From Fimbriiglobus ruber (lineage in GTDB: Bacteria; Planctomycetota; Planctomycetia; Gemmatales; Gemmataceae), in the NCBI RefSeq assembly GCF_002197845.1, contig NZ_NIDE01000010.1, positions 62,001-126,000 of the forward strand: 64,000 bases of DNA, in the 5' to 3' direction. Of this stretch, positions 31,416-53,087 are shown piece by piece. The notes below the pieces were generated by a model. The model saw only the letters and a program-made list of their open reading frames with translations, was not told the origin of the DNA and did no database searches. A program made the position numbers and the translations under genes. Each line of letters opens with the position of its first letter. The stretch's first letter is position 1.

Positions 31416-32597
31416 TTACGCGGGGTTCCGTACACCTTTGCTGCCGGTCACGGCCTCGTACCGAGCCACAATCACGTCGCAGTAGCCGGGGTCGAGTTCG
31501 ACCAGGCAGGCGGTTCGGCCGGACTGCTCGGCGGCGATCAGGGTGGTCCCGGACCCACCGAACGGGTCGAGGACGGTCCCGCCCGCGGGGCATGAGTTGC
31601 TGATCAGGTAGGCGAACAAGTCGACCGGCTTCATGGTCGGGTGGTCGGCGTTCCTGGCCGGCTTGCCGAACTCCAGGACGGTCGTCTGGGACCGATCCCC
31701 GAGCCACGTGTGGGCGGCCCCGTCGGCCCAGCCGTAGAGGCAGGGCTCGTGCCGCCAGTGGTAGTCCTGGCGGCCGAGGACGAGGCCCGGCTTGACCCAC
31801 ACCAGGCACTGGCGGACGGTCAGCCCGGCGTCCCCACAGGCGGCCCGGACGGTCAGGCCGTGCAAGTCGGCGTGCCACACGTAGAACGCCCCGCCCGGGC
31901 TGAGGTGGGTCATGGCGGCCCCGAGAGCGGACGTGAGGAACCGGTGGTAGGCGGGCTCGTCGAGGTCGTCGTTGGCGATAGTCAGCCGGTCGGCCGTCTT
32001 CCCCTCGTACCCGACGTTGTACGGCGGGTCGGTCAGCAGCAGGTCGGCCGCGGTCCCGTTGAGGGCGGTGGCGATGACGGCCGGGTCGGTGCTGTCCCCG
32101 CAGACGAGGCGGTGGCGGCCGAGGGCCCACACGTCGCCGGGTCGGGTAATCGGCTCGGCCGGCGGCTCGGGAACGTCGTCGGGATCGGCCTGGGGTTCGC
32201 CGGGCGGGTCGGCGAGCAGCCGGGCCAGGTCGTCAGCCGAGAACCCGGTCAGGGCGAGGTCGAAGTCGAGAGCCTGGAGGTCGGCCAGTTCCTTCGGCAG
32301 GAGCGACTCGTCCCAGGTGGCGAGGGTGGCCGTCTGGTTGTCGGCCAGTCGGTACGCCTTGGCCTGGGCGGGCGTCAGGTCGGCCACGTGGACCGGAACC
32401 TCGACCATGCCGAGCCGGACGGCCGCCTGGTACCGGGTATGGCCGACCACGATGACGTCCTGGGCGTCAACGACGATCGGCTGGCGGAACCCGAACTCGC
32501 GGATCGAGGCGGCCACGGCGTCGACGGCCGAGGCGTTGTCCCGCGGGTTGCCCGGGTACGGGGTGATCGACCCGACCGGCCGCATCTGAACGTCCAT
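31416..32597 (-). CDS. ParB-like nuclease domain fused to DNA adenine/cytosine-N4 methyltransferase
   Basis: The 393-residue product has an N-terminal ParB/sulfiredoxin-like domain (residues 1-100: PYPGNPRDN, VGHTRYQAAVRLG, RLADNQTA). A linker and an amino-methyltransferase follow. The catalytic TDPPYNVGY lies near residue 188 and the AdoMet motif DPFGGSGTTLIAAEQ near 350, the beta-class order. Such fusions occur in phages and integrative elements and methylate host or element DNA. No restriction enzyme gene is next to it. It lies in the same leftward operon as the terminase-like gene. Confidence 0.92.
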   Translation of the reverse strand: MDVQMRPVGSITPYPGNPRDNASAVDAVAASIREFGFRQPIVVDAQDVIVVGHTRYQAAVRLGMVEVPVHVADLTPAQAKAYRLADNQTATLATWDESLLPKELADLQALDFDLALTGFSADDLARLLADPPGEPQADPDDVPEPPAEPITRPGDVWALGRHRLVCGDSTDPAVIATALNGTAADLLLTDPPYNVGYEGKTADRLTIANDDLDEPAYHRFLTSALGAAMTHLSPGGAFYVWHADLHGLTVRAACGDAGLTVRQCLVWVKPGLVLGRQDYHWRHEPCLYGWADGAAHTWLGDRSQTTVLEFGKPARNADHPTMKPVDLFAYLISNSCPAGGTVLDPFGGSGTTLIAAEQSGRTACLVELDPGYCDVIVARYEAVTGSKGVRNPA

Positions 32598-33565: not shown

Positions 33566-35389
33566 TCAGTCCCCGCCCCACGTCCGCCCGACGGTGACGT
33601 CGACGGCGACCGGGACGGGGGCGACGAGCGGGGCCATCGCGTCGATCAGGCACGCCCGCACCCACGCGACCGCGTTGTCGGCGGAGGGTGCGTCGACCTC
33701 GACGACCACCTCGTCGTGGCAGAACAGGACGGGGACGGCCCCCGGGCAGTCGGCCCGGCGGTCCCACAGGAGGGCGATCGCCGCCTTCAATCCGTCCGCC
33801 CCGGTACCCTGGACCGGGGTGTTCAGGGCCTCGGTCACGTTCGGGTACCCGCCCTCACCGGCCCGCTTCTTACCGACCGGCAGGATTCGCCGCCGGCCGC
33901 CCCGGGTCCGCACCTCGAACGTGCCCGCGGGGTCGGCCTGGAAAAACCCCCGCACCCGGTCGCCCTCCCGGACGTGCCACCGCCGCAGGCCCGGGTACGC
34001 CCGGAAGAATGCGGCCCGGTACGACTGGGCCGCCGCGTCGGTCAAATTCACCCCGTAGTTCGACCGGGCGTACGCCCGAAGGGTTTTCCACCCCATCCCG
34101 AACAACAACCCGAAGTTGACCGCCTTGGCCAGTTGGCGGTCGCCCTTGGTAACATCCTCCACCGGCTTGCCGAGAACGGCGGCGGCGGTCAGGGCGTGGA
34201 GATCCTTCCCGTCCTTGTAGGCCGCGAGCATGGCCGCGTCGCCCGACACGGCTGCCGCGATCCGCAGCTCGACCTGGGAATAGTCAGCCTTGACGAGCAC
34301 CTTCCCGGAGCGGGCCACGAAACACCCCCGGTAGGCGGCCCCGCGCGGGATTTGCTGGAGGTTCGGGTCGGAGCAACTCATCCGCCCGGACTCGGCCCCG
34401 AGTTGCCGCCACGACGGGGACACGGCCCCGGTCGGGGCGTACTTGGCGACCCAGTCGGTCCCGTACGTCCCGGTCCGCTTGTGGGCCGCCCGGTACTCGC
34501 GGACGAGCCCGGCCAGCGGGTGGTCGACGGCCGCCAGGGCGTCGTCGTCGGTCCGGGTGAGGGCCACCCCGACGGCGGCGAACGCGGCCTTGACCTCGGC
34601 CGGGCTGTTCCAGTTCCGGGATTCCATCCCCGGGATGCTGGCCGGGTTCGGGGCGACCGCGTCCATCGCCTCGGCCAACCGGGCGACGTCGGCGTCGGCG
34701 TCTCTGGCCAGGGCTGCCCACCGGTCCCGGTCGACGGCGATCGGGGCGGCCCACGCAATCCCGCGGAGGGCCCGCATCTCGCGGTCGGCGGTGGCGGTCA
34801 GATCGGCGGCCGCGAGCTTGGCCTGGAGGTCGGCGGCGAGGGGAAGTAGGACGCGGGCGTCGGCGGCCGCGTACCGGAGCTGGGCTGGGGTTAGCCGCCC
34901 GCCCCAGTCGGATGTCTGCAGGTCCTTGGCCAGGTCGACGCCGAGTTCCCGTTTGGCGACGTCCCGGAGGGCGTGACGGATGCGGCCCCCGGTGGTCTCC
35001 TTGTGCCCAGCATGGAGAACGATGGACGCGAGCATCGTGTCAAAGACGGGACCGGGGGTGAACCCGAGTCGGGCCAGGAACCGGAGGTCGAACTGGAGGT
35101 TGTGGCCGACCACCTCGACGGTCGCCAGGGCGTCAAACAGCGGTGCGAGGGCGGCCGGGTCGGTGAGGGCGAACAGATCGATCAGGAAGACAGTTTCGCA
35201 GGTTGCTACCTGGAGTAACCGGACGCGGTCGGTTTCGGGGTCGAGGTCGGTCGTCTCGGTGTCCAGCCCGATCGGACCGGAATGGGTCCGGAGGGCGTCA
35301 AGCAGCGACGCCATCTGCTCGACGTTCGAGACCGGGACGAATTCGCCGCCGCCCGACTTGCTGCCCGACTTGCCTGGATCGACCACCAC
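33566..35389 (-). CDS. Family A DNA polymerase with 3'-5' exonuclease (phage type)
   Basis: The 607-residue product lacks the 5' nuclease of cellular Pol I. The exonuclease motifs are GLDTETTD (residue 41), GHNLQFDLRFLA (95) and LRYAAADA (171). Polymerase motif A is DYSQVELRIAA (369), motif B KGDRQLAKAVNFGLLFGMG (415) and motif C FCHDEVVVEV (556). All catalytic residues are present. The GTG start at 35389 overlaps the primase gene by 184 bp. An ATG at 35314 is an alternative and would still keep the exonuclease domain. Short polymerases of this kind replicate phages and some integrative elements. Confidence 0.93.
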   Translation of the reverse strand: MVVDPGKSGSKSGGGEFVPVSNVEQMASLLDALRTHSGPIGLDTETTDLDPETDRVRLLQVATCETVFLIDLFALTDPAALAPLFDALATVEVVGHNLQFDLRFLARLGFTPGPVFDTMLASIVLHAGHKETTGGRIRHALRDVAKRELGVDLAKDLQTSDWGGRLTPAQLRYAAADARVLLPLAADLQAKLAAADLTATADREMRALRGIAWAAPIAVDRDRWAALARDADADVARLAEAMDAVAPNPASIPGMESRNWNSPAEVKAAFAAVGVALTRTDDDALAAVDHPLAGLVREYRAAHKRTGTYGTDWVAKYAPTGAVSPSWRQLGAESGRMSCSDPNLQQIPRGAAYRGCFVARSGKVLVKADYSQVELRIAAAVSGDAAMLAAYKDGKDLHALTAAAVLGKPVEDVTKGDRQLAKAVNFGLLFGMGWKTLRAYARSNYGVNLTDAAAQSYRAAFFRAYPGLRRWHVREGDRVRGFFQADPAGTFEVRTRGGRRRILPVGKKRAGEGGYPNVTEALNTPVQGTGADGLKAAIALLWDRRADCPGAVPVLFCHDEVVVEVDAPSADNAVAWVRACLIDAMAPLVAPVPVAVDVTVGRTWGGD

Positions 35390-37899
35390 CCTGTCTTGGA
35401 GACCGTTTTCCCCAAGAGATGTTGCCCGACGCCCGACTTGCCCGACTTGCCCGACTTGCCTTCAGTTGTGATGCTGGGCGAGATGCCGCAAGTATCGAAT
35501 TCGAAATCTTTTACGATCGGTGACTCGGACGGGTCGGCGGACCGCTTCGGAGGCAAGTCGGGCACACTGGCGTTCGTGATCACGAGGTCGTCGTTGTCAT
35601 CGTCGGGGGGCAAGTCGGGCAAGTCGGGCGTCGGGCACAACAACAAACGCCTTAAGACGACTCCGCCCCGACCGGGTTTTCCTTCCCCGTTCCAGTAACC
35701 CACGCCGGCGGTTACCAGGGACTCGAGGGCGGCCTCCGCGGCGTCCCGGGTCCTGTAGGTCCGCGGGTTCGACCTTTGAAGTGCCCGCGACGTGACCCCG
35801 CCCCCGTTCCGGTCGGCCAGTCGACGGACGAGGTCGACCAGGGCCCGCAGGTCGGCCTCCTCCTCGGACTCCCCGAACATCCCGTACACCCGCTCGGCTT
35901 CCCGCCCGAACCACTCGGCCAGGGCCGCCCCGGCGTCGACGCTCGCGACCCCGACCGGGTCCCGGTCGCCCCCGCCCTCGACCCGCCCGGCCACGTGGTG
36001 GAGGAGCGCGAACCGGGCCGCGTACGCCTCCAGCTTGGAGAACGCGGCCGCCACGTCCCCGGCCGCCTGGTCCTGGCGGAGTCCCCATCGGTTGTAGAAC
36101 GCGACCCACGCGACCTTGGCCGCCGGGCTCAGGCACACCCGGACCGGACGGGTGCCGCCGCCCGGGTCGGGCTCGAGGTCGAGGGCCAGGAGGGCGTCCA
36201 GGTTCCGCCCGACGGCGGCCAGCGTATCCGGGTGGACGTCGACCTCGGTCCACACCTTGGGCCGCCGCGGGGGGTAAGCCAGCAGGATGCGGGCGGTCAA
36301 CCCGCTGTCGAAGAACTCCCGGGACATGTGGGCGGCCAGGACCCCCGGCTGAATGCCCCCGCACACCGACGCGGCTGCGTACGGGACGTACACGAGCTTG
36401 ACGTCCCCGGTCTTGCGGTCGACGACGACCGTCCCGGCCCGGTGGAGTTCGAGCCAGTTCGGCAGGTCCGTTCCCCCGCCCTTGCCCTTGTACCGGGCGA
36501 AACTCCCGAGCCACCCGGCCAGTTCGTCCCGGGCGACCAGGACGCCGCGGGGGTTCTCCTGGAGGATGCCGGCCAACTGCTCGATCGTGGTGTCGGCACA
36601 GAACAGCCGCCGAAGCGTCGGCTTGGCCGGTTTCTCGGCGTCCTCGTCGCCGCTCCCGTTGTACGCGGCCAGGTCGGCCAGGTACTGGGCCACGTCGGTT
36701 TGATACCGGCGGATCAGGTGCCCCTGACGGTCCTTCAGGAAGTCGGTCACGAGGGCGAACGCGGGGGACTTGAGGGACCCGCTCTCGCCGACCACGGCAG
36801 CCCACACGACGGCCGGCTCGGACCACTGGCGGCCGAGGAAGATGCGGCGGGTGTTGCCGATCGCGGACGCGAGCACCGCGAGGGCCGGGAGGGCGAGGTA
36901 CGCCTCGTCGCACCCGAGGGCGGCCGCGCCTTGCCGCACTAGCGACGCCCACGGCTCGGGCAGAGCGTCGGTCGGGAACGGCTGCCACGGGGCGAGCGGG
37001 ACGTACTTCGCGTCCGGCGTGGCCGAGGGGGAAGAATTGTCGGCCCCGGTACGGACCTTCGCCCCGAGCCACTCGCGAACGGTGTCGACGATTGCCTTGC
37101 CGCGGTCCCCGAGCAGGTCGATCAGCTTGGGCCACCCGGTCGCGGGCTCGCCGCCCGCGATCCGGTCGGCCGTCCCGGCCACATTTCGGACCCGGTCGGC
37201 GGTCTCCTCGTCGTCGGTCGCGGCGGCGACGGCGGCGACGAAGGTTTCCACCCGGGTGATGTCCCACCCCTGGCGGAGGAGGCCGCCGGCCAGGGCCAGG
37301 TGGGCAAAGTGCCGACTCCCCCGGCCCGGCCAGTACCGGGCCAACAGAGCCGATGCCGCGATCGACCGGACGGCAGCCAGCAACACATCCGCGGCGGCCT
37401 CGCCCGGTTCCCCGTTCCGGTCCCATGCGAGCTGTTCGCCCCCGGGGTGCCGGCTCGGCGGAACGACCGTCTGGCCTCCGGTGGACCGGAGTTCGACCAC
37501 CATCCCGCGGACGTCCTCCTTCTGGAAGAGTGGATCGGCGAACGACTCGGCCGCCTTCTTGGGCGGGTCGGGGCAGCGATACCACCAATGGGACGCGGGC
37601 GCGGACGGGCGGCCCGAGATCATCTCGGTCGGGGGCAGGAAGAACCGGGCGACGGCCACGGCCTCGGGGCAGTCGAGGTCGACGTCGACCAAGTTGGCCG
37701 GGTCGCCGAGGAGTAACCCAATGGCCCGTTCCCGGAATGGGGTCAGGTCGGTCGGATCGGCCCGGAATGCGGTCCACCCGTTGCCGACCGGCTTCTTGGT
37801 ATTGGGCCAGACCGGGACCGGCCAGAATCGCCGGTCGAGGTAAGTGGCGGCCGCGGCCCGGGTGTCCAGGACGCCGTTCGCGTGGGGGTCAATTGTCAT
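35206..37899 (-). CDS. Primase-polymerase / DUF3987 helicase-like replication protein
   Basis: From the ATG at 37899 (MTIDPHANGVLDTR) the 897-residue product has an N-terminal prim-pol domain: VDVDLDCPEA near 71, SHWWY near 103 and a conserved PPSRHPGG near 147. A DUF3987-type region follows with a P-loop-like VVGESGSLKSPAF near residue 380. The last 130 residues are low in order and contain GKSGKSGKSG. They overlap the polymerase frame and may not be conserved. Prim-pol plus DUF3987 is a replication initiator or primase-helicase of mobile elements. It lies directly upstream of the DNA polymerase, so the two form a replication unit. Confidence 0.88.
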   Translation of the reverse strand: MTIDPHANGVLDTRAAAATYLDRRFWPVPVWPNTKKPVGNGWTAFRADPTDLTPFRERAIGLLLGDPANLVDVDLDCPEAVAVARFFLPPTEMISGRPSAPASHWWYRCPDPPKKAAESFADPLFQKEDVRGMVVELRSTGGQTVVPPSRHPGGEQLAWDRNGEPGEAAADVLLAAVRSIAASALLARYWPGRGSRHFAHLALAGGLLRQGWDITRVETFVAAVAAATDDEETADRVRNVAGTADRIAGGEPATGWPKLIDLLGDRGKAIVDTVREWLGAKVRTGADNSSPSATPDAKYVPLAPWQPFPTDALPEPWASLVRQGAAALGCDEAYLALPALAVLASAIGNTRRIFLGRQWSEPAVVWAAVVGESGSLKSPAFALVTDFLKDRQGHLIRRYQTDVAQYLADLAAYNGSGDEDAEKPAKPTLRRLFCADTTIEQLAGILQENPRGVLVARDELAGWLGSFARYKGKGGGTDLPNWLELHRAGTVVVDRKTGDVKLVYVPYAAASVCGGIQPGVLAAHMSREFFDSGLTARILLAYPPRRPKVWTEVDVHPDTLAAVGRNLDALLALDLEPDPGGGTRPVRVCLSPAAKVAWVAFYNRWGLRQDQAAGDVAAAFSKLEAYAARFALLHHVAGRVEGGGDRDPVGVASVDAGAALAEWFGREAERVYGMFGESEEEADLRALVDLVRRLADRNGGGVTSRALQRSNPRTYRTRDAAEAALESLVTAGVGYWNGEGKPGRGGVVLRRLLLCPTPDLPDLPPDDDNDDLVITNASVPDLPPKRSADPSESPIVKDFEFDTCGISPSITTEGKSGKSGKSGVGQHLLGKTVSKTGWWSIQASRAASRAAANSSRSRTSSRWRRCLTPSGPIPVRSGWTPRRPTSTPKPTASGYSR

Positions 37900-38056
37900 G
37901 GGTGGCAATCTCCACGGGTAAAGGTTCGGGAACGAGTAGGTGCAGGCCGTCGGCGGACGCCTGCGGGTGTGGGGCGTTGTGGGGGTCCGACAGGAACCCG
38001 CGGACCGCGGGTTCTGTGGCCGGCTCACGGGGCACGGGGCAAGTGGCGGCGGTCAT
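37889..38056 (-). CDS. Very small hypothetical protein
   Basis: The 55-residue product starts MTAATCPVPREPATEPAVRG. Its ATG overlaps the stop of the upstream gene (ATGA) and its stop overlaps the primase start by 11 bp, which supports translation as a coupled cistron. No family is recognised. The motif GFLSDPHNAPHPQASADGLH looks like a structured loop rather than a shadow frame. Confidence 0.55.
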   Translation of the reverse strand: MTAATCPVPREPATEPAVRGFLSDPHNAPHPQASADGLHLLVPEPLPVEIATHDN

Positions 38057-38355
38057 CGGCCGGCCCTCCGCACGGGCTTGTGACTCGCGACCGGCGGGTC
38101 CGTCTCGACGCGGACGGCGTCGGGGCCGAACCCGCGGGTCAGGAAGCCGACGAACAGGCACCCGAGGTCGCGGCCGGCGGGGGTTCCGGCCGGGACCTCG
38201 ACGATCATCCGGCGCCGGTCGACGCGGGGGCCGGCGTCGAGCCGGGCCCGGGCCCCGTGCAGGCTCTCGGCCGCCCACCCGGCCAGGGTCAGGGCGGCGG
38301 TCGCGTCCGCGGCCGGGACGTCCGGGGACACCAGGTAGCGATAAAAACGAGTCAT
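38053..38355 (-). CDS. Hypothetical protein
   Basis: The 100-residue product starts MTRFYRYLVSPDVPAADATA and has a helical N-terminus and a beta-like C-terminus (RRMIVEVPAGTPAGRDLGCL, FLTRGFGPDAVRVETDPP). No family is recognised. The stop overlaps the next start as ATGA. The ATG at 38355 is the first in a clear coding context, with the purine-rich AAGGATCG upstream as a weak ribosome site. Confidence 0.65.
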   Translation of the reverse strand: MTRFYRYLVSPDVPAADATAALTLAGWAAESLHGARARLDAGPRVDRRRMIVEVPAGTPAGRDLGCLFVGFLTRGFGPDAVRVETDPPVASHKPVRRAGR

Positions 38356-38432
38356 AATCGATCCTTTTATGTCTGAAATTAGTCGGCTACTAAGTAAATA
38401 TGCGATCCGCGTCCGAGGTGACTCGCGGATCC

Positions 38433-38942
38433 TCAAAAATTTCCGAACCCGTGGTCCTCGAACCGAGCCCGGAGGCGGGCGACCCGCCGGCGGAGGGTCG
38501 ACGGGGAGATCCCCAGGGCCCGGGCGGCCGCGGCCTTCGACCCGGTCGCGGCGAGAACGGCGGCCAAGTCGCGCATGTCGTCGGACACGGCGGCCAACAC
38601 TGTCGCGACGTCCGCGACGTCCCCCCGCCAGGACGACAAGTCGGGGATCCGGTCGAGATCGACACCGTCGGTGACTCGACCACGATCCCGCTTGGCCGCC
38701 GTCTGCTTGCGGTGAAGTTCGGCGGCCGTCCGGTAGAGGACGGTGGCGGCGAACGGCTCGGCCGGCCCGCGGGCCGGGTCGAACCGGTCCCACCGGCGGA
38801 TGAGAGCCACGGCCAGCTCCTGGGCCGCGTCCTCCCGGTCGTGGGCGGCCGCGACGCCGTAGCCGGCGACTTTCGCGGCGAACGACCGGATCATGGCCCG
38901 GACGGCGGGCGGGAACTCGGGCTGGGGCACGGCGAACTCCAC
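38433..38942 (-). CDS. Sigma-70-like regulator with C-terminal helix-turn-helix
   Basis: The 169-residue product starts MEFAVPQPEFPPAVRAMI. The N-terminal half (DREDAAQELAVALIRRWDRF) resembles sigma region 2. The C-terminal helix-turn-helix (GSKAAAARALGISPSTLRRRVARLRARFED) resembles region 4 or a Fis-type motif. It is shorter and more divergent than the ECF factor at 25.8 kb. Sigma-like proteins of this size occur in phages as late-gene activators. It precedes the replication genes on the same strand. Confidence 0.7.
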   Translation of the reverse strand: MEFAVPQPEFPPAVRAMIRSFAAKVAGYGVAAAHDREDAAQELAVALIRRWDRFDPARGPAEPFAATVLYRTAAELHRKQTAAKRDRGRVTDGVDLDRIPDLSSWRGDVADVATVLAAVSDDMRDLAAVLAATGSKAAAARALGISPSTLRRRVARLRARFEDHGFGNF

Positions 38943-39057: not shown

Positions 39058-39366
39058 TTAGCCGGGCAGTTCGGCGTGGAACGGCAATCCGTGCTTGATT
39101 GTCAGAACGTGAATCATCCCATCCCCGATCGAATCGAGGAGGGCGAACAGGTCGAGGTGTTGCTTCTTGAGTGCGAACGTGGCCAACCCGCCCTCGGGGC
39201 GGGGCGAATTCTCGCCCGCGAATTTGAACTCGCGGACGATGCACGGACGGGGGGACAGGACCGGGTCGCCGCCGCGGACGATTAGTCCCTCGACGCGGCC
39301 GAAGTTCAGGGAGGACGGACAGGAGGTGCCGGCGGGCCGGCGACAGGTCACGGGAACACGTCGCAA
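39058..39366 (-). CDS. Hypothetical protein
   Basis: The frame of about 102 residues uses a TTG or an internal GTG start and ends KHGLPFHAELPG. The section CIVREFKFAGENSPRPEGGL followed by TFALKKQHLDLFALLDSIGDG reads like real protein and contrasts with the Arg/Pro-rich alternative frames. No family is recognised. It lies between the sigma-like gene and the QueC-like gene, on the same strand. Confidence 0.5.
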   Translation of the reverse strand: MRRVPVTCRRPAGTSCPSSLNFGRVEGLIVRGGDPVLSPRPCIVREFKFAGENSPRPEGGLATFALKKQHLDLFALLDSIGDGMIHVLTIKHGLPFHAELPG

Positions 39367-39486: not shown

Positions 39487-41280
39487 CTACCGGGCGACCG
39501 TCGCGGCGGCGATCTGAAGCCGGTAGTGCTGCTTCTGGCGGCCGTCGAACACGAGCTCGGTCAGCCCGGCCGCCACGAGCTTCCGGCGGGCGTTACTCAT
39601 CGTCTTCTGGATGGTGAACGATTCGGCGTCGATGCCCGGCCAGACGGCTTCCCGGAGGGCGTCGTACGGCACGTAGTCGCCGACCGACCGGGCCATCCGG
39701 GCGACCAGGTGGAATTCGTTCGTGTTCCCGAAGAAGCATTCCCGGCCCCGCGTCCGGACGGTGAATCGGGCCGGGTCGACGATCAGCCGTTCCGGGTCCG
39801 TATCGGGCCCGACGGCGGGTGGCAACCCGATCGGGGTCGGCATCCGCCCGAGTATCAGCCCGAGGAGGGATGCCGGCGGGACGGTCTGGCCGACGATCGC
39901 GTTGACCTGCTCGCCCAGGGCCCGGGCGACCGCCCGGGACATCCCGTCGGAGTGCCGCCGGCACAGGTCGAACACTCGCTCGGCCGCGACCGCGGGCGGT
40001 AGCCCGTAGTACCGCAGAGCCCGGTTGACCTCGGGATTGTGGGCCGCGAACGCGACGGGGGAGGCGATGCGCCGGACGTCGAGGGCGGCCCCGACGAACC
40101 GCTCGACGAGGAGCAGATCGGCCCCGTCCCGGGCCCCGACCAGGACGTCCTCCCGGTACCCGGCGGGCGGGTCGTGGGCCGGGCCGAGGCCGGCCGCCAG
40201 GACGCTCAGCCGGCGGTCCACGCATTGGGAACACCGCCCGCAGTGCGGGCCGGCCCCGGTCGTCTGGTCGCGGGTGTGGATACAACTGACCGTGTCGGCC
40301 AGCAGGTCGGCGTGACCGGCCGCGTGCAAGGCGACCAGGAGTTCGGCCCGGGTCGCCCACTCGAACGGGTTGACGACCGCGAACTCGGACTCGAACACGA
40401 GGGACAACAACCGGGCGAGCCGGGCTAGGGCCTGCGGGTGGGTCGTCCGGCTGGCCCGCCCGCCGATCACCTGGGGGCTGATCGGCAGGTTCAGGCTGAT
40501 AATCCCGTTCTCGTAGAACCGGAGCTCGGACAACCCGACCCGGCGGGCGATCACCCCGCCGACGGCCGCGAACAGGAACGACCGGCTCCGCTGGGTATGG
40601 GCGGTGGCCACCCCGTCGGCCAGGTGGGCCGTGACCCCGACGTGGGCCGGGCGCGGGGTCCCGGCCCGGCGGCGGTCGGCGACGGCCCGGTACAGGGCCT
40701 GTTGGCGGGCGTACACGTGGTTGACCGGGCGGTGGCTGACCAGGAGCTGGCGGCGGCCGCGGACGGCCGTCGCGTCGATCGCCCCGCACAGCGAGTCGGC
40801 CCCGCCCGAGAACAGGGCGACCTCGTCGAACTCGCCGGCCGACGGGCCGACCCGGTCGAGGAGGTACTGGACGTCGGCCGCCCGGGCAGTCGTGGAGGTG
40901 AACGAGAACTCGTACTGGTCGTCGGTCAGGAACTCGAGGGCATCCCGGAGGGCGTCCCGGACGTGCCGGCGGGACCACAAGTCGGAACGCCGGACGGGGA
41001 TGTGGAACCGGAGCGTCCGCCGCCACCGGTCCCCGTAGTCGATCCGGGTCGGTCCCCCACGGGAGACCGTCTGGTCGGCCGCGAACACGTACGCGGCGAT
41101 CTCGATCAGGTCGAGCTCGGCCGGCGAGGGGCGGGTGTGAATGAGCCCGGCCAGTTGGTCGAATTTCAGCCGGACCTGCCCGCCCTTGTCGCCGATGTCC
41201 AGTCGGCGGACGACCGGCGGGGTTCCGGGGGCAGACGGGGGCTCGGCCCCGCCGCACACGATCAAATGGGGGTCAGCCAC
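39487..41280 (-). CDS. QueC-like PP-loop ATPase fused to a C-terminal winged helix
   Basis: The 597-residue product has the PP-loop SGGADS at residues 158-163 and a Cys cluster C333, C347, C350, C353 (HCGRCSQC). This is the pattern of the zinc site in 7-cyano-7-deazaguanine synthase QueC. An extra N-terminal domain of about 140 residues precedes the core. The last 90 residues (YVPYDALREAVWPGIDAES, IQKTMSNARRKL) look like an OmpR-type winged helix. QueC-like enzymes serve queuosine, DNA deazapurine modification in phages, and defence systems such as Qat and type IV CBASS. The GTG start overlaps the upstream partner gene, so the two are coupled. The size and winged helix differ from typical QueC (about 220 residues) and QatC. 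Confidence 0.8.
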   Translation of the reverse strand: MADPHLIVCGGAEPPSAPGTPPVVRRLDIGDKGGQVRLKFDQLAGLIHTRPSPAELDLIEIAAYVFAADQTVSRGGPTRIDYGDRWRRTLRFHIPVRRSDLWSRRHVRDALRDALEFLTDDQYEFSFTSTTARAADVQYLLDRVGPSAGEFDEVALFSGGADSLCGAIDATAVRGRRQLLVSHRPVNHVYARQQALYRAVADRRRAGTPRPAHVGVTAHLADGVATAHTQRSRSFLFAAVGGVIARRVGLSELRFYENGIISLNLPISPQVIGGRASRTTHPQALARLARLLSLVFESEFAVVNPFEWATRAELLVALHAAGHADLLADTVSCIHTRDQTTGAGPHCGRCSQCVDRRLSVLAAGLGPAHDPPAGYREDVLVGARDGADLLLVERFVGAALDVRRIASPVAFAAHNPEVNRALRYYGLPPAVAAERVFDLCRRHSDGMSRAVARALGEQVNAIVGQTVPPASLLGLILGRMPTPIGLPPAVGPDTDPERLIVDPARFTVRTRGRECFFGNTNEFHLVARMARSVGDYVPYDALREAVWPGIDAESFTIQKTMSNARRKLVAAGLTELVFDGRQKQHYRLQIAAATVAR

Positions 41281-42057
41281 GGTTGGCCCCCCGGATCGCC
41301 AGCTCCTTTTTCAGTTTCGTGAGGCAGTAGGCGGCGAACTTCTGGGCCTGATAGGCCGAGATCCCTTCGGTGAACCGGGCCTTCGAGTACCACTCCCCGG
41401 TGTACGCGTGGACGATCTCGGCCGCCTCCCGGCAATGGACCCCGAGGTCGTCGACGAACGCGTCCCGGGCGGCCCGGTCGGGGAACCGCCCGTTCCCGCT
41501 GACGTGCCGCGGGAGTTAGCGGTCCAGGTGGTACATCAAGAACCGGCGGGTGAACGCGGTGAAGAACGCGTGCCCGAGGGTCGCGAACCCCTTCTGGGTC
41601 GACAACTTGCGGACTGCCGCCCGGATCCGCTCCTCGGTGAACAGGACGCCCGTGTGACGGGGACGAGGTCGGTCAGGGCCTCGGCGGCGGCCAACTCGGC
41701 CATTTCGGCGAGGTCCGTCCGCGGATTCCGGGTGGACGCGTGCCACGCCCGGATGGCCTCGGACATCCCGGCGGTCAGGTCGAACAGGGTCGGGGCGTCG
41801 GGGAGGTCGATCCCGAGTTCGGCCGCCCGGGCCGGGAAGTCCGCCGTGCGGGCCGCGACGACGGTGTGGGCGAGGAGGTACACGACCCGGGCGACGCCGG
41901 GGTCGTCGGCCGACCGGTCGAGTCCATCGACGGCGGCGTGGGACACGGCTCGAGCGACGGCGGCCGCATTGGCCCCGTCCGCGATGCGGCCGACGACGAC
42001 TTGCCACGGGCGGGTGTCGGGGGGGTTCCGAGGCGGATGTGGCCCATAATCGGTCAA
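41273..42057 (-). pseudogene. Partner gene of the QueC-like ATPase, frameshifted and with an in-frame stop
   Basis: The TTG at 42057 starts MTDYGPHPPRNPPDTRPW and the frame holds a helical domain to LAAAEALTDLVPVT. One frameshift near 41655 leads to GVLFTEERIRAAVRKLSTQK and RFLMYHLDR. A TAA (41516-41518) then interrupts, after which the same frame continues LPRHVSGNGRFPDRAARDAF through VHAYTGEWYSKARFTEGISA to a stop at 41273. The rebuilt protein is about 260 residues. Its stop overlaps the start of the QueC-like gene by 8 bp. I do not recognise the family. Position suggests the target or partner protein of the QueC-like enzyme. Confidence 0.65.
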
Positions 42058-42443: not shown

Positions 42444-43935
42444 TACTACAGCGCAGGATATTATCCACTAGCCAACGAGGGACGTAAGTCGGCTCCGGCG
42501 CGTCGTTTTCGATGGCTGACGGCCGCCCGCCGATTCCTCTCTTGTCGCCAGTGGGACCACCTCAGGATCTCCGCCGCGTTCCATTCCCGAACGTCCAACA
42601 GGTGCATGAGGAGAGCCCGCACTTCGGGAACGGTCATCTGGGGCTCTTTTTTCCCCCAACCGGTGTTTCTGTAACACCAGGAAGGCCAGAGCCAACATCG
42701 ACAGGGCCGTGTGGTGATGCCATCCCACCCACCCCCGCGTCTCATACTCGTCGAGTCCGCACTCCCCTTTACCGATCTGGAAATCTTCCTCGATGGTCCA
42801 ACGACGTCCACGAATTTCGGCGAGTTTCTCCCGCCCGACATCCGCGGGGCATTGGACCGGTGGTACGTGACCTCCGGTTCCTGGCTCAGGGATCGCCGCG
42901 CTAACAGTCGCTCGGGTGATCCCCGGGCGTTCGTCCTCACGAAACCAGACCGTCACCTCGGCGTACTCGTACACCCGTGGTCCTTTGGTCCCGTCCCCGA
43001 CCACCACCCGGTGCCAGGCGGTTGCGGGTAAGTAGGCGATCACCTCGTCCACCCGGCGACGTTCGCCAACGATCCGGGGCTGGGTCGGCCGCCGACCCCT
43101 TGACGGCTTCGGTCGTTGGTCGGCCGGAATCACCTCCGGTCGCTGGGTCCACACCTGGGTATCGCACGCGATGTCCAGGACGTACCACTTGCCGAGCCTC
43201 CGGACCCCCTGGACAAACGTCGGGTTGTCCCCGTACACGCTATCCCCACCGACCCACCGAAATGGGACGCCGGCCGCGATCGCGTCCGCGATCATCTCCC
43301 GGGCCAGTTCCGGTTGGGTTCGGAAGACCACGCCCTCGGGAACCCCGGCGTCTTGGCACCGGGGGCCATCCTCCACCCACTCCTCGGGGAGATACCACCG
43401 GCGGTCGACGACGGCGTGCCGCGAGACGAGGCGTAATTCGCGAACACCCCGATCTGGCAGTTGTCGACCCGCCCCAGGGTACCCGAATACTGCCGCTGGA
43501 CCCCGACCGACTTGGTCCCCTTCTTGGGGAATCCGGTCTCGTCGACGTTCAGGACGGCGTCCGGATCGGTCAACGCGCCCACGACGGCTTGCCGCACGTC
43601 GCTCAGGAGCGCGCGGTCCGACCAGACCCCGGTGGCGACGAACGCTTGGAGGCTGCGAACCGGACCGCCGTTCGTCGCCTCGGCGATGTTCTCACTGTTG
43701 CGTCGGTCGCCCCCACGGAGGAGACCCTGGACGAACCGACGGGCATGGCCATCGTTCTCGCTCCGCCCAAAGAGTGGGTGAACTGGTCCAAGAAGCGATC
43801 GAGTTCGGGTTTGAGACGGAGGAGTTCTTGTTCGTCCATGAACAGCGCCGGAAAAGAGGGAAGATGTCTCCTGACAATACGTTATAACCAATCCCTATCC
43901 GGCGTCAAAGGGCTCTCTCGGCCTGCGCTGTAGTA
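42444..43935 (-). mobile_element. Second IS701-like element (decayed)
   Basis: The ends TACTACAGCGCAGG (42444) and CCTGCGCTGTAGTA (43935) are inverted and resemble the CAGTACAGCGCAG ends of the main IS701 copies. Flanks are TTAG on the left and TTAA on the right, a degenerate YTAR duplication. Length is about 1492 bp. Confidence 0.8.
42468..43839 (-). pseudogene. IS701-like transposase with several frameshifts
   Basis: The pieces, in order, are MDEQELLRLKPELDRFLDQF (from 43839), then a shifted frame with NVDETGFPKKGTKSVGVQRQ and CQIGVFANYASSRG, then a third frame with PFRWVGGDSVYGDNPTF and WTIEEDFQIGKGECGLDEYE, and finally a tail in yet another frame (MTVPEVRALLMHLLDVREWN) ending near 42468. 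Together they give the complete DDE order of an IS701-type transposase (DET, DSVYG, E in the WTIEE helix). At least three frame changes are needed, so the gene is inactive. Confidence 0.85.
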
Positions 43936-44124
43936 TTAAGCGGGCGTGGCGTTTTAGCACCGAAAAATCCGGATGTTTCTCGGGTTGCTGCGACAAAGTG
44001 CGCGGTCTTCACAATTCGCCCCGGATCGACGGAACGCATCCCGTTCCAGGTGGTTACAGCTCGCCTCCGACCGGCAGGCGGGGCGCAAATTGCAAATGAT
44101 TTCGGTAAATCCGAGGTGCGTGGG

Positions 44125-44465
44125 ATGGGCGGCATGGGCAGCGGGAAACGGTTCGGGCGGTCCAAGAACGCCTTGGTCGAAGACTGCTGGGACATCGACA
44201 CGACTGACTTCGGCCGACGAGGGCTCCTCGCGCCCGGCACCCATCAATCCGGGAGCTGACGCGAACTCGTACCGCCCTGCTGGGTCGCGCGCTGTCGTCC
44301 ACGATCGAATACACGCTCGACCTGCGCGCCCCCGACCAGGCTTTTGTGGAACTGCGGTATCGGTTGGTTCTGGCCGACGAGTCGCACACCTACCGGGTGC
44401 GGTTGGTGTCGACGGGCTGCGCGTTTGGTGGGGTGCGGTGGTGGTTCCTCTGTCCGTTGATCCGG
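44125..44465 (+). pseudogene. Planctomycete/proteobacterial zinc-ribbon hypothetical protein, frameshifted and cut by IS21-B
   Basis: The start MGGMGSGKRFGRSKNALVED and continuation CWDIDTTDFGRRGLLAPGTH match a widespread small family that begins MGxGxxxxxxx-TVExC. A frameshift near 44240 leads to IEYTLDLRAPDQAFVELRYR and YRVRLVSTGCAFGGVRWWFL followed by CP. The family normally continues with a zinc ribbon after WFxCP. Here the frame enters IS21-B, whose first six bases give Trp-stop. The C-terminus is therefore lost. Confidence 0.7.
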
Positions 44466-44535
44466 TGGTGATCATCATCGGGAAGGAAAACACGAACAGC
44501 ACGAAAGGAAAACGCGACGGCCGTGAGGTTGAGGG

Positions 44536-45312
44536 TTATTTCCCCTTCTTCGGGTCCTTGCCCGCTTTGGCTTTCATCGACTCGCGGAAGCGGTAACTTT
44601 CGCCCGACATCTCAAAGATGTCGCATTGGTGGGTCAACCGGTCGAGCAGGGCGGCCGTCATCCGCTCGCCCTGGAACACTTGGCCCCACTCGCCGAACGG
44701 CAGGTTGCGGGTGACCAACAGGCTCCGTCGCTCGTACCGGTCGGCGAATACCTGGAACAGCAACTCGGCCCCGGCCCGGCTGAACGACAGGTACCCGCGT
44801 TCGTCCACGATCAGCAGGTCGAGGCGGTCGAGGGTGGCCCGCATCCGGTCCAACCGGTGTTCCTGCTGGGCCTTCTCCAACTGGGTGACGAGTCCGGCCG
44901 CGGTCACGAACCGGACCCGCTGGCCGGCCCGGCCGAGGGCCAGTCCGAGGGCCGTCGCCAGGTGCGTCTTCCCGGTTCCGCTCCCCCCGATCAGACACAG
45001 GTTGGTCTGTTGGTCGACCCCGGCCCCGCGGGCGAGTTCGAGGATCTTGTGCTTGGGGACGGACGGGCACGCGGTGAAGTCGAACGTGTCCCGATCCTTG
45101 ACCACCGGGAACCCGGCCGCCCGGATGCGGGCGGCGACGGCGTTGGCCGCCCGGGCCGTCACCTCGACCTCGGTCAGGCGGACCAGGTACGCGTCATACG
45201 GCTCGTTGGCGGCCGCCGCCTCACGGGCCAGCTGGTCCCACTCGGCCCGCAGGGCCGGAAGTTTGAGCGTCTTGAGGTTGGCCGTCACCAGCAGGGCGTT
45301 CGCGTCGGTCAT
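44536..45312 (-). CDS. istB: IS21-family ATP-binding helper protein, element B
   Basis: The 258-residue AAA+ protein has Walker A GGSGTGKTH and Walker B LLIVDERGYLSF. The Arg in DERG replaces the usual Leu of DELG but keeps the catalytic Asp-Glu pair. The ATG at 45312 (MTDANALL) follows GAGGAG with good spacing, so it is preferred over the ATG nine bases upstream. It is about 70 percent similar to the istB of elements A and C, and so is a separate IS21 type. Confidence 0.93.
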   Translation of the reverse strand: MTDANALLVTANLKTLKLPALRAEWDQLAREAAAANEPYDAYLVRLTEVEVTARAANAVAARIRAAGFPVVKDRDTFDFTACPSVPKHKILELARGAGVDQQTNLCLIGGSGTGKTHLATALGLALGRAGQRVRFVTAAGLVTQLEKAQQEHRLDRMRATLDRLDLLIVDERGYLSFSRAGAELLFQVFADRYERRSLLVTRNLPFGEWGQVFQGERMTAALLDRLTHQCDIFEMSGESYRFRESMKAKAGKDPKKGK

Positions 45313-46819
45313 CGGTTTCATCTCCTCGGGAGGAACGGGTTAACAAGTGGTCGAACCGGGACAAGTCGGGAAGGGCGGCGGTGGCGGCCGGCCGGGTCAT
45401 TGTCTCGGCCGACGTTCCCCGGTCGGCCTCCGCCAGACGCTCGGCGGTCGCGATGATGCGGGCGGCGTCGGGGGCACCGGCGGCCAACCCGGACGCGACC
45501 GCTTGCTCGACCCGGCCCATCGGGTGGCGGGCGAGCAACTGGAGAACGCGAATGTACGGCTTGGCCCCGGCGGATGGCCCGACCCGCTCCTCCAGAGCGC
45601 GCCGGAGGGCCGGAAGGGCGGGCGGCAACTGCCCGTCCCGGTACACGGGGGCGTGGTCGAGGGCGGCCGGCTTCCGCTCCAGGACGACCAGGAAATGTAA
45701 CGGATCGAGGATCTTGTCCCCGCGACCGTAGGACCGCGGGTGGGTCGCGATCACCTGCCCGTCGGCGACGACTGCGACCCGATCCACGTACCCTGTGACG
45801 GTGACCGGGCGGAACGCCCACCGGCGGGGGACGCTGTACGCGTTGTGGTCGAACCGCGCCGTCTGGTACTTGTCGACCATGGCCGGGTGGAACACGCACG
45901 GGTCGAACGGGCGGGCCGGGACCGGGGCGGCGGCCGCCCGCTCCCGGTCGAACCGGACCTGAACGGTCTCGGGGTTCCCGCCACACGTCCGCCCGCGGGC
46001 CGCGACACAGCACGGTCGGAGATGCGTGTTCAACGCGGCCAAGTCGACCACCTGGGGAACCGGGGTGGCCCACTGCCGCTGCAGGTCGAACACCCGGTTC
46101 TCGACCCGCGGCTTCTCCCGGGGGGTAACCGGGAGACAGAACTTCGGGGTGAACGGGTCGTGGGCCGCGAGGGCCGCGTACCGCGGGTGGACGGTCCGCT
46201 CCCGGCCGGCCAGGACGTGGACGGCGACGGTCGTTGGGTTGTCCCACCAGACTTCCGCCGGGACACACCCGAAGAACCCGAACGCCTCGACCAATCCGTG
46301 CAGGATCGCCTCAGTCCGCTCGGTCGGCAGGGCGAGAGCGAACGGGGCGTTCGAGTCACTCCAGGTGACGATCCGGACCGGAACCGATCGCCGGCCGCCC
46401 GGGAAGTCGACCGCGATGTGTCCGCAGTCGGCTTCGGCCCGTGACCCCGGGCGATGGTCGAGAGGGACGAATGTCTCCCGGCGGTCGAGGCGGCGGCCCT
46501 TCAGGTACCGCTGGACCGGGGCGTAGCTGCCGGCGTACCCGTGGTCGGCGACCAACCGGCGGAAGATCTGCTGGGCGGTGTGCCGCTGCTTCCGCGGGGC
46601 CGTCTCATCCGCGGCCAGGATCGCATCTACGATCCCGCGAACCGGATCGAACACCGGGGCCGCACGGGTGGCCGCCGGGGCCAGTGGGTCCGGGGCCGGA
46701 CCGGCCAGAACCTTGAGGATGGTCTTCGACGAGTGGTGCAGTTGGGCGGCGATCTGGCCGACGGTCAACCCGTCCCGGTGCAATTGCCGAATGCGAGCGT
46801 GCTGGTCCACCGTGAGCAT
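45221..46819 (-). CDS. istA: IS21-family transposase, element B
   Basis: The 532-residue product starts MLTVDQHARIRQLHRDGLTV. Its N-terminal helix-turn-helix is followed by an rve-type DDE core (RAEADCGHIAVDFPGG, VWWDNPTTVAVHVL) and the beta-barrel region (ARFDHNAYSVPRRWAFRPVT). It overlaps istB by about 90 bp, as usual for IS21. No frameshift is seen, so element B is the only IS21 here with both genes intact. Confidence 0.93.
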   Translation of the reverse strand: MLTVDQHARIRQLHRDGLTVGQIAAQLHHSSKTILKVLAGPAPDPLAPAATRAAPVFDPVRGIVDAILAADETAPRKQRHTAQQIFRRLVADHGYAGSYAPVQRYLKGRRLDRRETFVPLDHRPGSRAEADCGHIAVDFPGGRRSVPVRIVTWSDSNAPFALALPTERTEAILHGLVEAFGFFGCVPAEVWWDNPTTVAVHVLAGRERTVHPRYAALAAHDPFTPKFCLPVTPREKPRVENRVFDLQRQWATPVPQVVDLAALNTHLRPCCVAARGRTCGGNPETVQVRFDRERAAAAPVPARPFDPCVFHPAMVDKYQTARFDHNAYSVPRRWAFRPVTVTGYVDRVAVVADGQVIATHPRSYGRGDKILDPLHFLVVLERKPAALDHAPVYRDGQLPPALPALRRALEERVGPSAGAKPYIRVLQLLARHPMGRVEQAVASGLAAGAPDAARIIATAERLAEADRGTSAETMTRPAATAALPDLSRFDHLLTRSSRGDETDDRRERPAGDGQPQDAQTSGPAGRVGPAGP

Positions 46820-51717: not shown

Positions 51718-53087
51718 CAGTACAGCGCAGTAATTTAATAGGATGGGAGGGAAGGATTTAGGAGGAATCACATGACCGAGCAGGAAATCGTGGGCGTCGG
51801 CCCGGCGTTCGCCCGGTATCTGGGCCGGTATCGGGACGTGTTCCGGCAAGACCGCACGGCCGCCCACTTCGACACGTATTGTCGGGGCCTGTTATCCGAC
51901 CTGCCGCGGAAATCGATCGAACCGATCGCGTTGGCGAGCGGGACGACGGTCCGTACCCTCCAGTTGTTCGTGACGACCTCGGTGTGGTCGTACGACGAGG
52001 CCCGGACGCGGTTGCACCGATTCGTGGCCGATACGCTGGCCGATCTCCCGACCGATCCCGTCGGAACGGTCGGGGTGATCGACGAGACGAGCAGCCGGAA
52101 GTGGGGGGATCACACTCCGGGCGTCCAACGGCAGTACCTGGGGTGTGTGGGCAAGGTCGACAATGGGATCGTGACCGTCCACGTGGGGGTCACCCACGGC
52201 ACCTTTCGCACCCTGTTGGACGCCGACCTGTTCCTACCCGAGTCGTGGGACGTGGACCGCGCGCGGTGTCAAGCGGCCGGCATCCCGGACACCGTCCGGC
52301 ACCACCCGAAGTGGCGGCTGGCCCTCGACCAACTCCTCCGGGCGAACACGAACGGGATCACGTTCGACGGGCTGACGTTCGACGAAGGGTACGGGGCAGC
52401 CGTCCCGCTCCTGACCGTGTTGGGCGTGATGGGACAGCGGTTCGTGGGTGAAATCCCGACGCATTTCGCCGTCCGGGACGCGGCCGGGGGCCCCTCCCGG
52501 CGGGCCGACGAGCGGTTGACCGGGGGTCACGCCGAGCGGGGGCGAGTGTACCGGTTGACCCGCCAGACGACCCGCCCGTCGGTCTGGCGGGTGGCCACCG
52601 CCATCGTCTGGGTGGCCGACCGCAAGCACACCCTGATGGTCGCCCGCAACGACGCGACCGGGGAGATCAAGTACTTCCTGACGAACGCCACGGCCGAGCC
52701 GGTGGCTCGGATTCTCGCCGTCGCCTTCCGCCGGTGGACGGTCGAGCATCTATTCCGGGTCGCCAAACAGGAAGTCGGACTGATGCACGACGAGGGGCGG
52801 GATTACACGGGGCTGATGCGGCACCGGACCCTGGCCGTGGTCGTCCTCGGATTCGTCGCCGCCCACACGGAGCGGCTCCGGGGGGAAAAACCCAGACGTG
52901 ACGATGGAGCAGGTGTGCCGGGCGCTCAACGTCCGGTGCGCGATCCTGTTCCGGCGGCGACGGGGAACCGGGGCCACCCAACATACCAGCGACGTAATTC
53001 AATACCACCAGCGGCGAAACAAGCAAGCCACCCGATCTCATAAGAAGCAGCGGCACAAACGTGTTACGTAAAATACGCGCTGTACTG
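51718..53087 (+). mobile_element. IS701-family element, copy E
   Basis: This complete 1370-bp copy has a perfect TTAG duplication (51714-51717 and 53088-53091). The right TTAG consists of the TTA duplication of IS5 copy 2 plus the first G of that IS5, so the insertion is exactly at an IS5 border, as for copy B. Confidence 0.95.
51772..53043 (+). CDS. IS701-family transposase, copy E
   Basis: The 423-residue copy has the same protein sequence as copy C (VTHGTF, FDGLTF, IPTHF, RHRTL), differing only by silent changes such as CAA for CAG. DDE motifs and AGGAGG-ATG spacing are intact. The identity with copy C implies that one derived from the other recently or that both came from one active parent. 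Confidence 0.93.
   Translation: MTEQEIVGVGPAFARYLGRYRDVFRQDRTAAHFDTYCRGLLSDLPRKSIEPIALASGTTVRTLQLFVTTSVWSYDEARTRLHRFVADTLADLPTDPVGTVGVIDETSSRKWGDHTPGVQRQYLGCVGKVDNGIVTVHVGVTHGTFRTLLDADLFLPESWDVDRARCQAAGIPDTVRHHPKWRLALDQLLRANTNGITFDGLTFDEGYGAAVPLLTVLGVMGQRFVGEIPTHFAVRDAAGGPSRRADERLTGGHAERGRVYRLTRQTTRPSVWRVATAIVWVADRKHTLMVARNDATGEIKYFLTNATAEPVARILAVAFRRWTVEHLFRVAKQEVGLMHDEGRDYTGLMRHRTLAVVVLGFVAAHTERLRGEKPRRDDGAGVPGAQRPVRDPVPAATGNRGHPTYQRRNSIPPAAKQASHPIS

Follow-up and report, generated by a model that had tools for sequence, protein, structure and literature searches.

The locus at positions 39487–42057 of the 64,000-nucleotide stretch of Fimbriiglobus ruber DNA analyzed here (contig NZ_NIDE01000010.1, positions 62,001–126,000, of assembly GCF_002197845.1; this whole stretch is referred to below as the window, and positions are those of the window unless a locus is named) raises the question of what an enzyme of the QueC family does when it ends in a domain resembling that of a transcriptional regulator and is overlapped by a small, broken partner gene. 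Our analyses indicate that the enzyme is a QatC protein carrying an additional winged-helix tail, that its partner belongs to a QatB-type family, and that pairs of this kind occur on serine-integrase phages and elements in a slot where unrelated occupants share C-terminal domains with the QatC proteins. With slightly more confidence than doubt, we propose that the window-type system, a QatB-QatC pair with a DNA-binding-type tail, is one input module mounted on a DNA-binding output that sets the behaviour of the element carrying it.

The QatC enzyme and its C-terminal tail

The enzyme gene (39487–41280, minus strand) starts with GTG, has an open frame with coding-type base composition, and encodes a protein of 597 amino acids (aa). 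The sequence-only reading of this locus had described the product as a QueC-like PP-loop ATPase, nearly three times the size of QueC, with intact SGGADS motif and four-cysteine site, and these features were borne out: the PP-loop lies at residues 158–163 (40792–40809), the four cysteines are residues 333, 347, 350, and 353 (40222–40284), and QueC is reported to be only 219–231 aa long (PMC13329287). Among 54 aligned QatC homologues, SGGxDS, R278, T279, H281, and P282 are invariant, T280 is found in 53, and the four cysteines are kept in 54, 53, 54, and 54, respectively. The R-T-T-H-P pocket motif (40435–40449) stands where QueC and Cap9, the related enzyme of type IV CBASS, have Tyr/Asp, according to the equivalence given in PMC13279940. 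At the place of Thr280 of the QatC pocket, Thr is present in all 54 homologues; the Thr278 place is taken by Thr in 45 of them and by Ser in the other 9, as it is in the window protein.

AlphaFold2 (AF2) models, which the sequence-only reading had named as a way of checking it, were made for the window QatC and for an intact relative of the partner (from locus L060). The model of the 597-aa protein, built from a 54-row alignment, has a mean predicted local distance difference test score (pLDDT) of 89.7, and its residues 3–479 superpose on QatC (9y01_B) with a VIA Z of 35.3 and a root-mean-square deviation (rmsd) of 2.8 over 410 of 428 residues at 27% identity, vs. a Z of 13.9 for QueC and 13.0 for Cap9. 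The assignment of the core (residues 1–479; 39844–41280, minus strand) to QatC is also supported by Foldseek (2.2e-19), by PADLOC, which names the protein QatC (2e-55), and by the family profile, which matches QatC 9vlk in the PDB at 1.7e-55. The NCBIfam QatC match (4.7e-59, 200.3 bits) lies under the 280-bit equivalog cut-off, and the Pfam QueC score (20.4) under its cut-off of 22. As judged from the model and these profile matches, the first part of the protein is a whole QatC, including the QatC-specific N- and C-terminal extensions, and not a generic relative of QueC. Hence the earlier QueC-like identity was right as to family and motifs but incomplete, the enzyme being a full QatC and its partner QatB-type.

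The remainder of the protein contains a winged helix of the OmpR/PhoB type (residues 497–592; 39505–39792, minus strand), as the sequence-only reading had supposed while allowing that a different fold would tell against it. The fold comparison gives a VIA Z of 12.6 to SaeR and 11.6 to the PhoB-DNA complex, the AF2 model has block pLDDT values of 88–95 over residues 501–590, and a 12-sequence tail profile matches the PDB best at BaeR (1.2e-8), the 50 PDB rows listed for it being, by name, response regulators or ToxR/CadC-type activators. The Pfam Trans_reg_C model reaches only sub-cut-off scores (17.4 vs. 26.2 bits for the whole protein and 20.8 bits for the tail alone). The window protein resembles OmpR/PhoB-type regulators in possessing a C-terminal winged helix but differs from them in lacking a receiver domain and in having the tail fused to an ATP-using enzyme of the protein-modification type. 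This layout had been put forward as one not previously known, and no description of a QatC-winged-helix fusion, or of a slot for QatBC, was found in the titles and abstracts of the open-licence literature searched, nor any QatC with a winged helix in the portions of the QatC- and QueC-family papers examined.

The QatB-type partner and its relation to Qat operons

The partner gene (41273–42047, minus strand) ends 8 bp inside the QatC gene, and the earlier statement to this effect can be read directly from GTGGCTGA, which contains both the start of QatC and the stop of the upstream gene. The partner had been described as carrying a frameshift and a TAA. It is indeed broken, with an in-frame TAA at 41516–41518, but that list of lesions was short: its homology to intact relatives is split over three frames (corresponding to their residues 1–10, 10–112, and 133–259), with at least two frame changes. 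As assembled, the partner gene in the window is a pseudogene, whose N-terminus, Met-Gly-His-Ile-Arg-Leu-Gly, is that of its family.

The proposed survey of gene neighborhoods for intact pairs has identified a QatB-like coding match directly upstream of QatC in all 25 of the relatives first examined (at locus L048 in two frames). Alignment A1 comprises 22 of these 25 together with the window protein, leaving out L058 (frame-shifted), L048 (doubtful end), and L019 (incomplete); alignment A2 consists of 16 QatB-like sequences whose starts are clean, L008 supplying two; and removal of near-copies (at 88% for A3 and 80% for A4) left 55 of 79 rows in A3 and 53 of 82 rows plus the window protein in A4. 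Glycine is present at position 2 of the partner in 79 of 80 pairs (taken from 80 unique IMG/VR loci and three genome contigs, 83 loci in all) and in 32 of the 33 pairs for which the QatC pattern alone was used in fetching. The second count is the fairer, since a Met-Gly pattern had served to retrieve part of the loci; the one partner that departs from the rule, in either count, is truncated.

The model of the intact partner from L060 has a mean pLDDT of 84.5 with residues 1–11 disordered, and in VIA two QatB entries head the results (Z 12.4 and 12.0 over 206 and 202 residues; next row 6.9), the best match having an rmsd of 3.8 over 206 of 215 residues. The QatB-like helical fold, the disordered N-terminus, and Gly2 thus indicate that the modelled partner family is QatB-type. 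Naming the partner by sequence comparison was less informative, as PADLOC, NCBIfam, and PDB sequence searches gave no QatB match for the family. PADLOC named two and NCBIfam four unrelated weak families, each in one of 16 members; the PDB gave matches to an SRP receptor (0.0053) and a phosphogluconolactonase; and the broken open reading frame (ORF) itself gave only a VapB-type match at 0.087.

Contigs C4 and C6 of this genome (the latter being locus L009) carry further copies in which both genes are open and the tail is of type B. The C4 locus (L008:5881-9542) has two tandem QatB-like genes followed by one QatC gene, and at L058, in a genome of the same family, the damage is the other way round from the window, with an open QatB-like gene and a QatC gene divided between two frames.

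QatB and QatC of qatABCD operons (PDB 9y01, 9y02; PMC13279940) share with the present pair the QatC extensions, PP-loop, zinc site, and R-T-T-H-P pocket, a helical QatB with disordered N-terminus and Gly2, and the tight order of QatB then QatC. The pair described here differs from them in an extra C-terminal domain of about 100–200 residues (a winged helix in the window type), in its separate clade and phage or element setting, in the Ser at the Thr278 place of the window protein, and in the N-terminal pattern of the partner (MGHxRLGxLPxTRxW vs. MGTSxSxxGPxSxxxLVPxW in operon QatB). In agreement with the earlier reading, tblastn at 1e-3 with 8 + 8 queries matched neither QatA nor QatD across the window and the 104 related loci that were fetched (controls were found 3/3), and plain membership of qatABCD was rejected on this ground. 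When 82 QatC cores are placed in a tree, a single branch with 100/100 support parts eight operon QatCs from the 74 others, with the caveat of possible long-branch attraction between the operon QatCs and L212, whose branch is long. L212, a pair on a Leptospira noguchii plasmid (L212:5054-7698), falls with the 74 and has a partner starting MGHERLG and a different C-terminal extension. At L219:3354-5483, on a Bradyrhizobium plasmid, a 709-aa protein annotated as QatC has a C-terminal part that by eye resembles QatD, the TatD-type nuclease, and is a possible QatC-QatD fusion.

Cap9 of type IV CBASS (PDB 9nto) is likewise a QueC-family enzyme thought to act on its partner's N-terminal glycine, and is reported to join 7-deazaguanine to that N-terminus (PMC11996544). 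The window enzyme is unlike Cap9 in fold score, and its adjacent partner is QatB-like, not a CD-NTase; membership of type IV CBASS was rejected on the identity of this adjacent partner, no scan of the wider window with a CD-NTase model having been made.

Phage setting and the variable slot

Matches to the QatC protein or part of it are present in 23 of the 95 genomes of the window's family, and the partner profile matches 11 of 392 genomes in a sample of the phylum, two of them marginally. IMG/VR yielded 147 stretches encoding relatives of QatC, of which 80 were kept, and 53 encoding relatives of QatB. The clusters found around the 80 unique loci, named from the PHROG or Pfam match of one member each, include a recombinase (56 loci), DUF2924 (40), Sak4 (39), a helicase (23), and a sigma factor (21); a LexA-like helix-turn-helix (HTH) protein was recognized by eye at 25. 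A common order is DUF2924, recombinase, p141, QatB, QatC, p127, sigma, p112, and then an AAA or primase gene. Among these loci we chose 45 IMG/VR records that contain QatC or the whole pair, and 27 of them have a large-terminase match (22 GpA and 5 phrog_2, one of the latter weak). The 50,697 annotated phage genome records gave no match to the window protein, and for a relative whose tail is of another type they gave two partial matches (26% identity, 40% of the query), both in Listeria phages that are unannotated; therefore the phage setting rests on the IMG/VR records with their terminases. Among plasmids, 132 records match, none over 80% of the query, and many of the 40 listed are annotated qatC. 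To the question of whether homologues lie in defence islands or in phages, the survey thus answers that those found are chiefly on contigs of serine-integrase (pro)phages and mobile elements, and this is the setting of the present QatBC group, for which no QatA or QatD came to light in the loci searched.

The pair occupies a variable slot between the DUF2924-recombinase-p141 and the p127-sigma modules. It is not a constant part of the backbone: QatB and/or QatC were found in only 13 of 34 loci anchored on p127 and 11 of 80 anchored on p141 (80 kept of 209), some of the loci without the pair ending before the slot does. In 55 loci that have both borders and lack QatBC (some of these being two loci of one contig), other genes fill the slot, mostly C0-family (37 proteins) or C5 (6), and the C0 or C5 protein is usually preceded by an unrelated first slot gene.

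Proteins in these slots share their C-terminal domains with QatC. At 1e-4, the tails of 26 of the 54 QatCs match slot proteins (best 40.5% identity over 116 residues) and none of the 54 QatC cores does; at 1e-3, a protein matching a QatC tail is present in 21 of the 55 slots (15 of 37 C0, 5 of 6 C5, and the single C16). These E-values refer to small sets, and profile comparisons agree with them (3.2e-15 between C0 and tail B, 2.4e-9 between C5 and tail C). The tail-type protein is encoded by the last slot gene in 21 of 21 cases, with the match ending no more than 13 residues from the C-terminus in 20 of the 21, and 913 other flanking proteins serving as background gave no QatC-tail match. At L118, a QatC that by its core lies beside the window-type clade carries a C0-type tail. 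At L314:6851-9487, on an IMG/VR contig, the slot holds a HamB-like (Hachiman-type) helicase (PADLOC 4.5e-37) of which the end, but not the core, aligns with the window OmpR-type tail (E 1.8e-5, probability 78), and at L331:6003-8207, in a genome of the family, a stand-alone 177-aa protein with a window-type tail stands directly beside a recombinase gene. Slot occupants unrelated to QatC hence end in C-terminal domains homologous to QatC tails, the tail type of the window itself being linked only more weakly.

Slot families C7, C6, and C3 were recognized by eye as LexA-, XRE-, and ImmA/IrrE-like in some slots; such proteins are usual parts of lysogeny control. PADLOC, applied to ten slot occupants, gave nothing for eight, including C0, C1, C2, C4, and C5, the HamB-like match for one, and a weak mads_1-like match for another, and the C0, C1, C2, C4, and C5 examples have no Pfam match. 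The two-gene modules at L222:3345-5544 (C1 + C0), L223:4330-6733 (C4 + C5), and L258:1652-3782 (C2 + C0) have no PADLOC match. Single-gene occupants taken by eye as HTH-ended (L307, L316, L317, and L278) found weak support or none (L307 vs. tail A6, E 3.3e-4; sub-cut-off matches of L278 to HTH_17 at 0.0014 and of L317 to HTH_11 at 0.055; nothing for L316).

The window itself retains one side of this arrangement. Following QatB and QatC on the minus strand are the p127 family gene, which also follows QatC in related elements (39058–39366; alignment A9), a sigma-70 region 2/HTH protein (38433–38942; Pfam Sigma70_r2, 5.1e-10), a p112 family gene forming the 3' part of an ORF at 38053–38793 (38053–38361, start approximate; alignment A10), and, by Pfam, a Prim-Pol + DUF3987 protein (35206–38028), a DNA polymerase A with 3'-5' exonuclease (33566–35389), and a ParB_N + DNA methylase protein (31416–32597). 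On the other side, where relatives have their recombinase module, Pfam identifies insertion-sequence genes (42468–46819, minus strand), comprising a DDE_5 transposase piece (42468–43376) and an IS21-type pair (44536–46819), and tblastn at 1e-3 found no recombinase, DUF2924, or p141 in the window. The scanned neighbours are element genes; no queuosine-type gene is present among the nine examined by Pfam, so that queuosine operons are not the only home of the homologues. The locus looks like the decayed remnant of a phage-type integrative element with a QatB-QatC pair and without QatA or QatD. The window copy, which has neither an intact QatB nor the integrase side, is probably inactive, and a function for it is unlikely because the partner is broken. 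Four 423-aa ORFs elsewhere in the window that share their first 70 residues (5664–6935, 7376–8647, 19362–20633, and 51772–53043) are probably copies of one insertion sequence.

Regulatory switch or defence

The QatBC pair is here probably an interchangeable input module on a predicted DNA-binding output, i.e., a regulatory switch. The switch step is proposed because the QatC active site is conserved and the QatB N-terminus is similar to that of the operon systems, but an output domain has been added. Removal of the initiating Met of QatB would allow its Gly to enter the active site of QatC, which, with ATP, would activate a carboxylate (7-deazaguanine-like or another) and join it to that glycine; QatC thus probably tags its partner chemically. 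The modification of QatB, or the formation of the QatBC complex, would then set the binding of the tail to element DNA, and the state of the tail would act through the integrase, sigma factor, and replication genes on the induction or dormancy of the element. Winged-helix proteins can serve as excision factors of integrative elements, in the reported cases with tyrosine recombinases (PMC11963761). The gain of a DNA-binding tail by an immune enzyme that lies in a swappable slot beside the integrase suggests that an immune reaction has been put to new use as a genetic switch.

The strongest alternative, which we regard as rather unlikely but worth serious weight, is that the pair is a two-gene, prophage-borne anti-phage defence as in qatABCD, the winged helix only autoregulating the operon or bringing the complex to invading DNA. 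The pair sits in a variable slot next to an integrase, and such slots are a usual place for cargo. Several further observations weigh against a switch. QatBC is reported to be a minimal defence unit that needs QatC catalysis and Gly2 of QatB, alone protecting E. coli and sufficing against lambda-vir (PMC13279940), and the HamB-like helicase is an occupant that a defence slot would predict, with the weak mads_1-like match as another. The output side is also incompletely linked: no protein directly matches a QatC tail in 34 of the 55 slots; the C0 proteins are of two C-terminal types, 22 of the 37 lacking a direct QatC-tail match and their profile matching none of the tails A6, A7, and A8; none of the 55 other slots gives a direct match to the window tail type (A6) at 1e-3; and tail types B and C are joined to the winged helix by profile links only, their own profiles giving no OmpR match under 0.01 and no convincing relatives in the PDB. 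On the partner side, the QatB fold Z of 12.4 is below the caution level of about 13 that the tool sets for helical folds, where chance is possible; Foldseek alone found nothing for the L060 model at E 0.001, the QatB match coming from the second look with VIA; and sequence profiles barely join the two QatB groups (probability 11, E 0.0028; weak but collinear). A chance match to the QatB fold is nevertheless unlikely because of the gene order, Gly2, and the QatC neighbour. Defence, on the other hand, would not require that unrelated enzymes share a DNA-binding-type tail, always on the last slot gene, nor would it lead one to expect LexA-, XRE-, and ImmA/IrrE-like genes in the same slots or the absence of any PADLOC match for eight of the ten occupants scanned, the common ones included. 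Regulation and defence may both apply, a prophage sensing a competitor and responding to it.

For the window copy only, and compatible with either a switch or defence, the lesions of the partner could be assembly errors, the pair being intact in the cell. The stretch is GC-rich with runs of G and the adjacent QatC gene is intact, but at least two frame changes and a stop within about 775 bp, vs. none in the 1794 bp of QatC, together with the insertion-sequence genes that replace the integrase side, make this improbable. A 7-deazaguanine enzyme for queuosine or phage DNA modification, as the core fold, SGGxDS, and Cys4 zinc site shared with QueC (PDB 3bl5, 2pg3), the phage setting, and a match to PHROG 1550 (named QueC-like queuosine biosynthesis; 7.4e-13) might suggest, was rejected as very improbable on the QatC-type pocket, the fold score, and context, the genome having further QueC-family genes (matches of 240 and 80 bits). 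QatC is reported not to restore queuosine to a queC mutant (PMC13329287).

If the QatBC pair acts as a switch of the kind proposed, its tailed form without QatA and QatD would offer a readout (DNA binding, transcription, or excision) for a reaction that could not be reconstituted in vitro; in PMC13279940, the action of QatC on QatB and the route to phage arrest are stated to be open. Other two-gene modules of the slot, likewise undescribed, end in the same tails and may act in sensing or defence. More broadly, and with more doubt than confidence, we advance the tentative proposal that serine-integrase phages maintain a slot with a regulatory role, in which enzymes of immune type (viz. QatBC, the HamB-like helicase, and several undescribed two-gene modules) are interchangeably joined to a few DNA-binding tails, so that an infection-sensing reaction, here the N-terminal modification of QatB, would directly control the genes of the element. 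Qat defence in operons may then be a relative of such switches, and these observations would suggest how immune enzymes could turn into regulators on phages, or regulators into immune enzymes.

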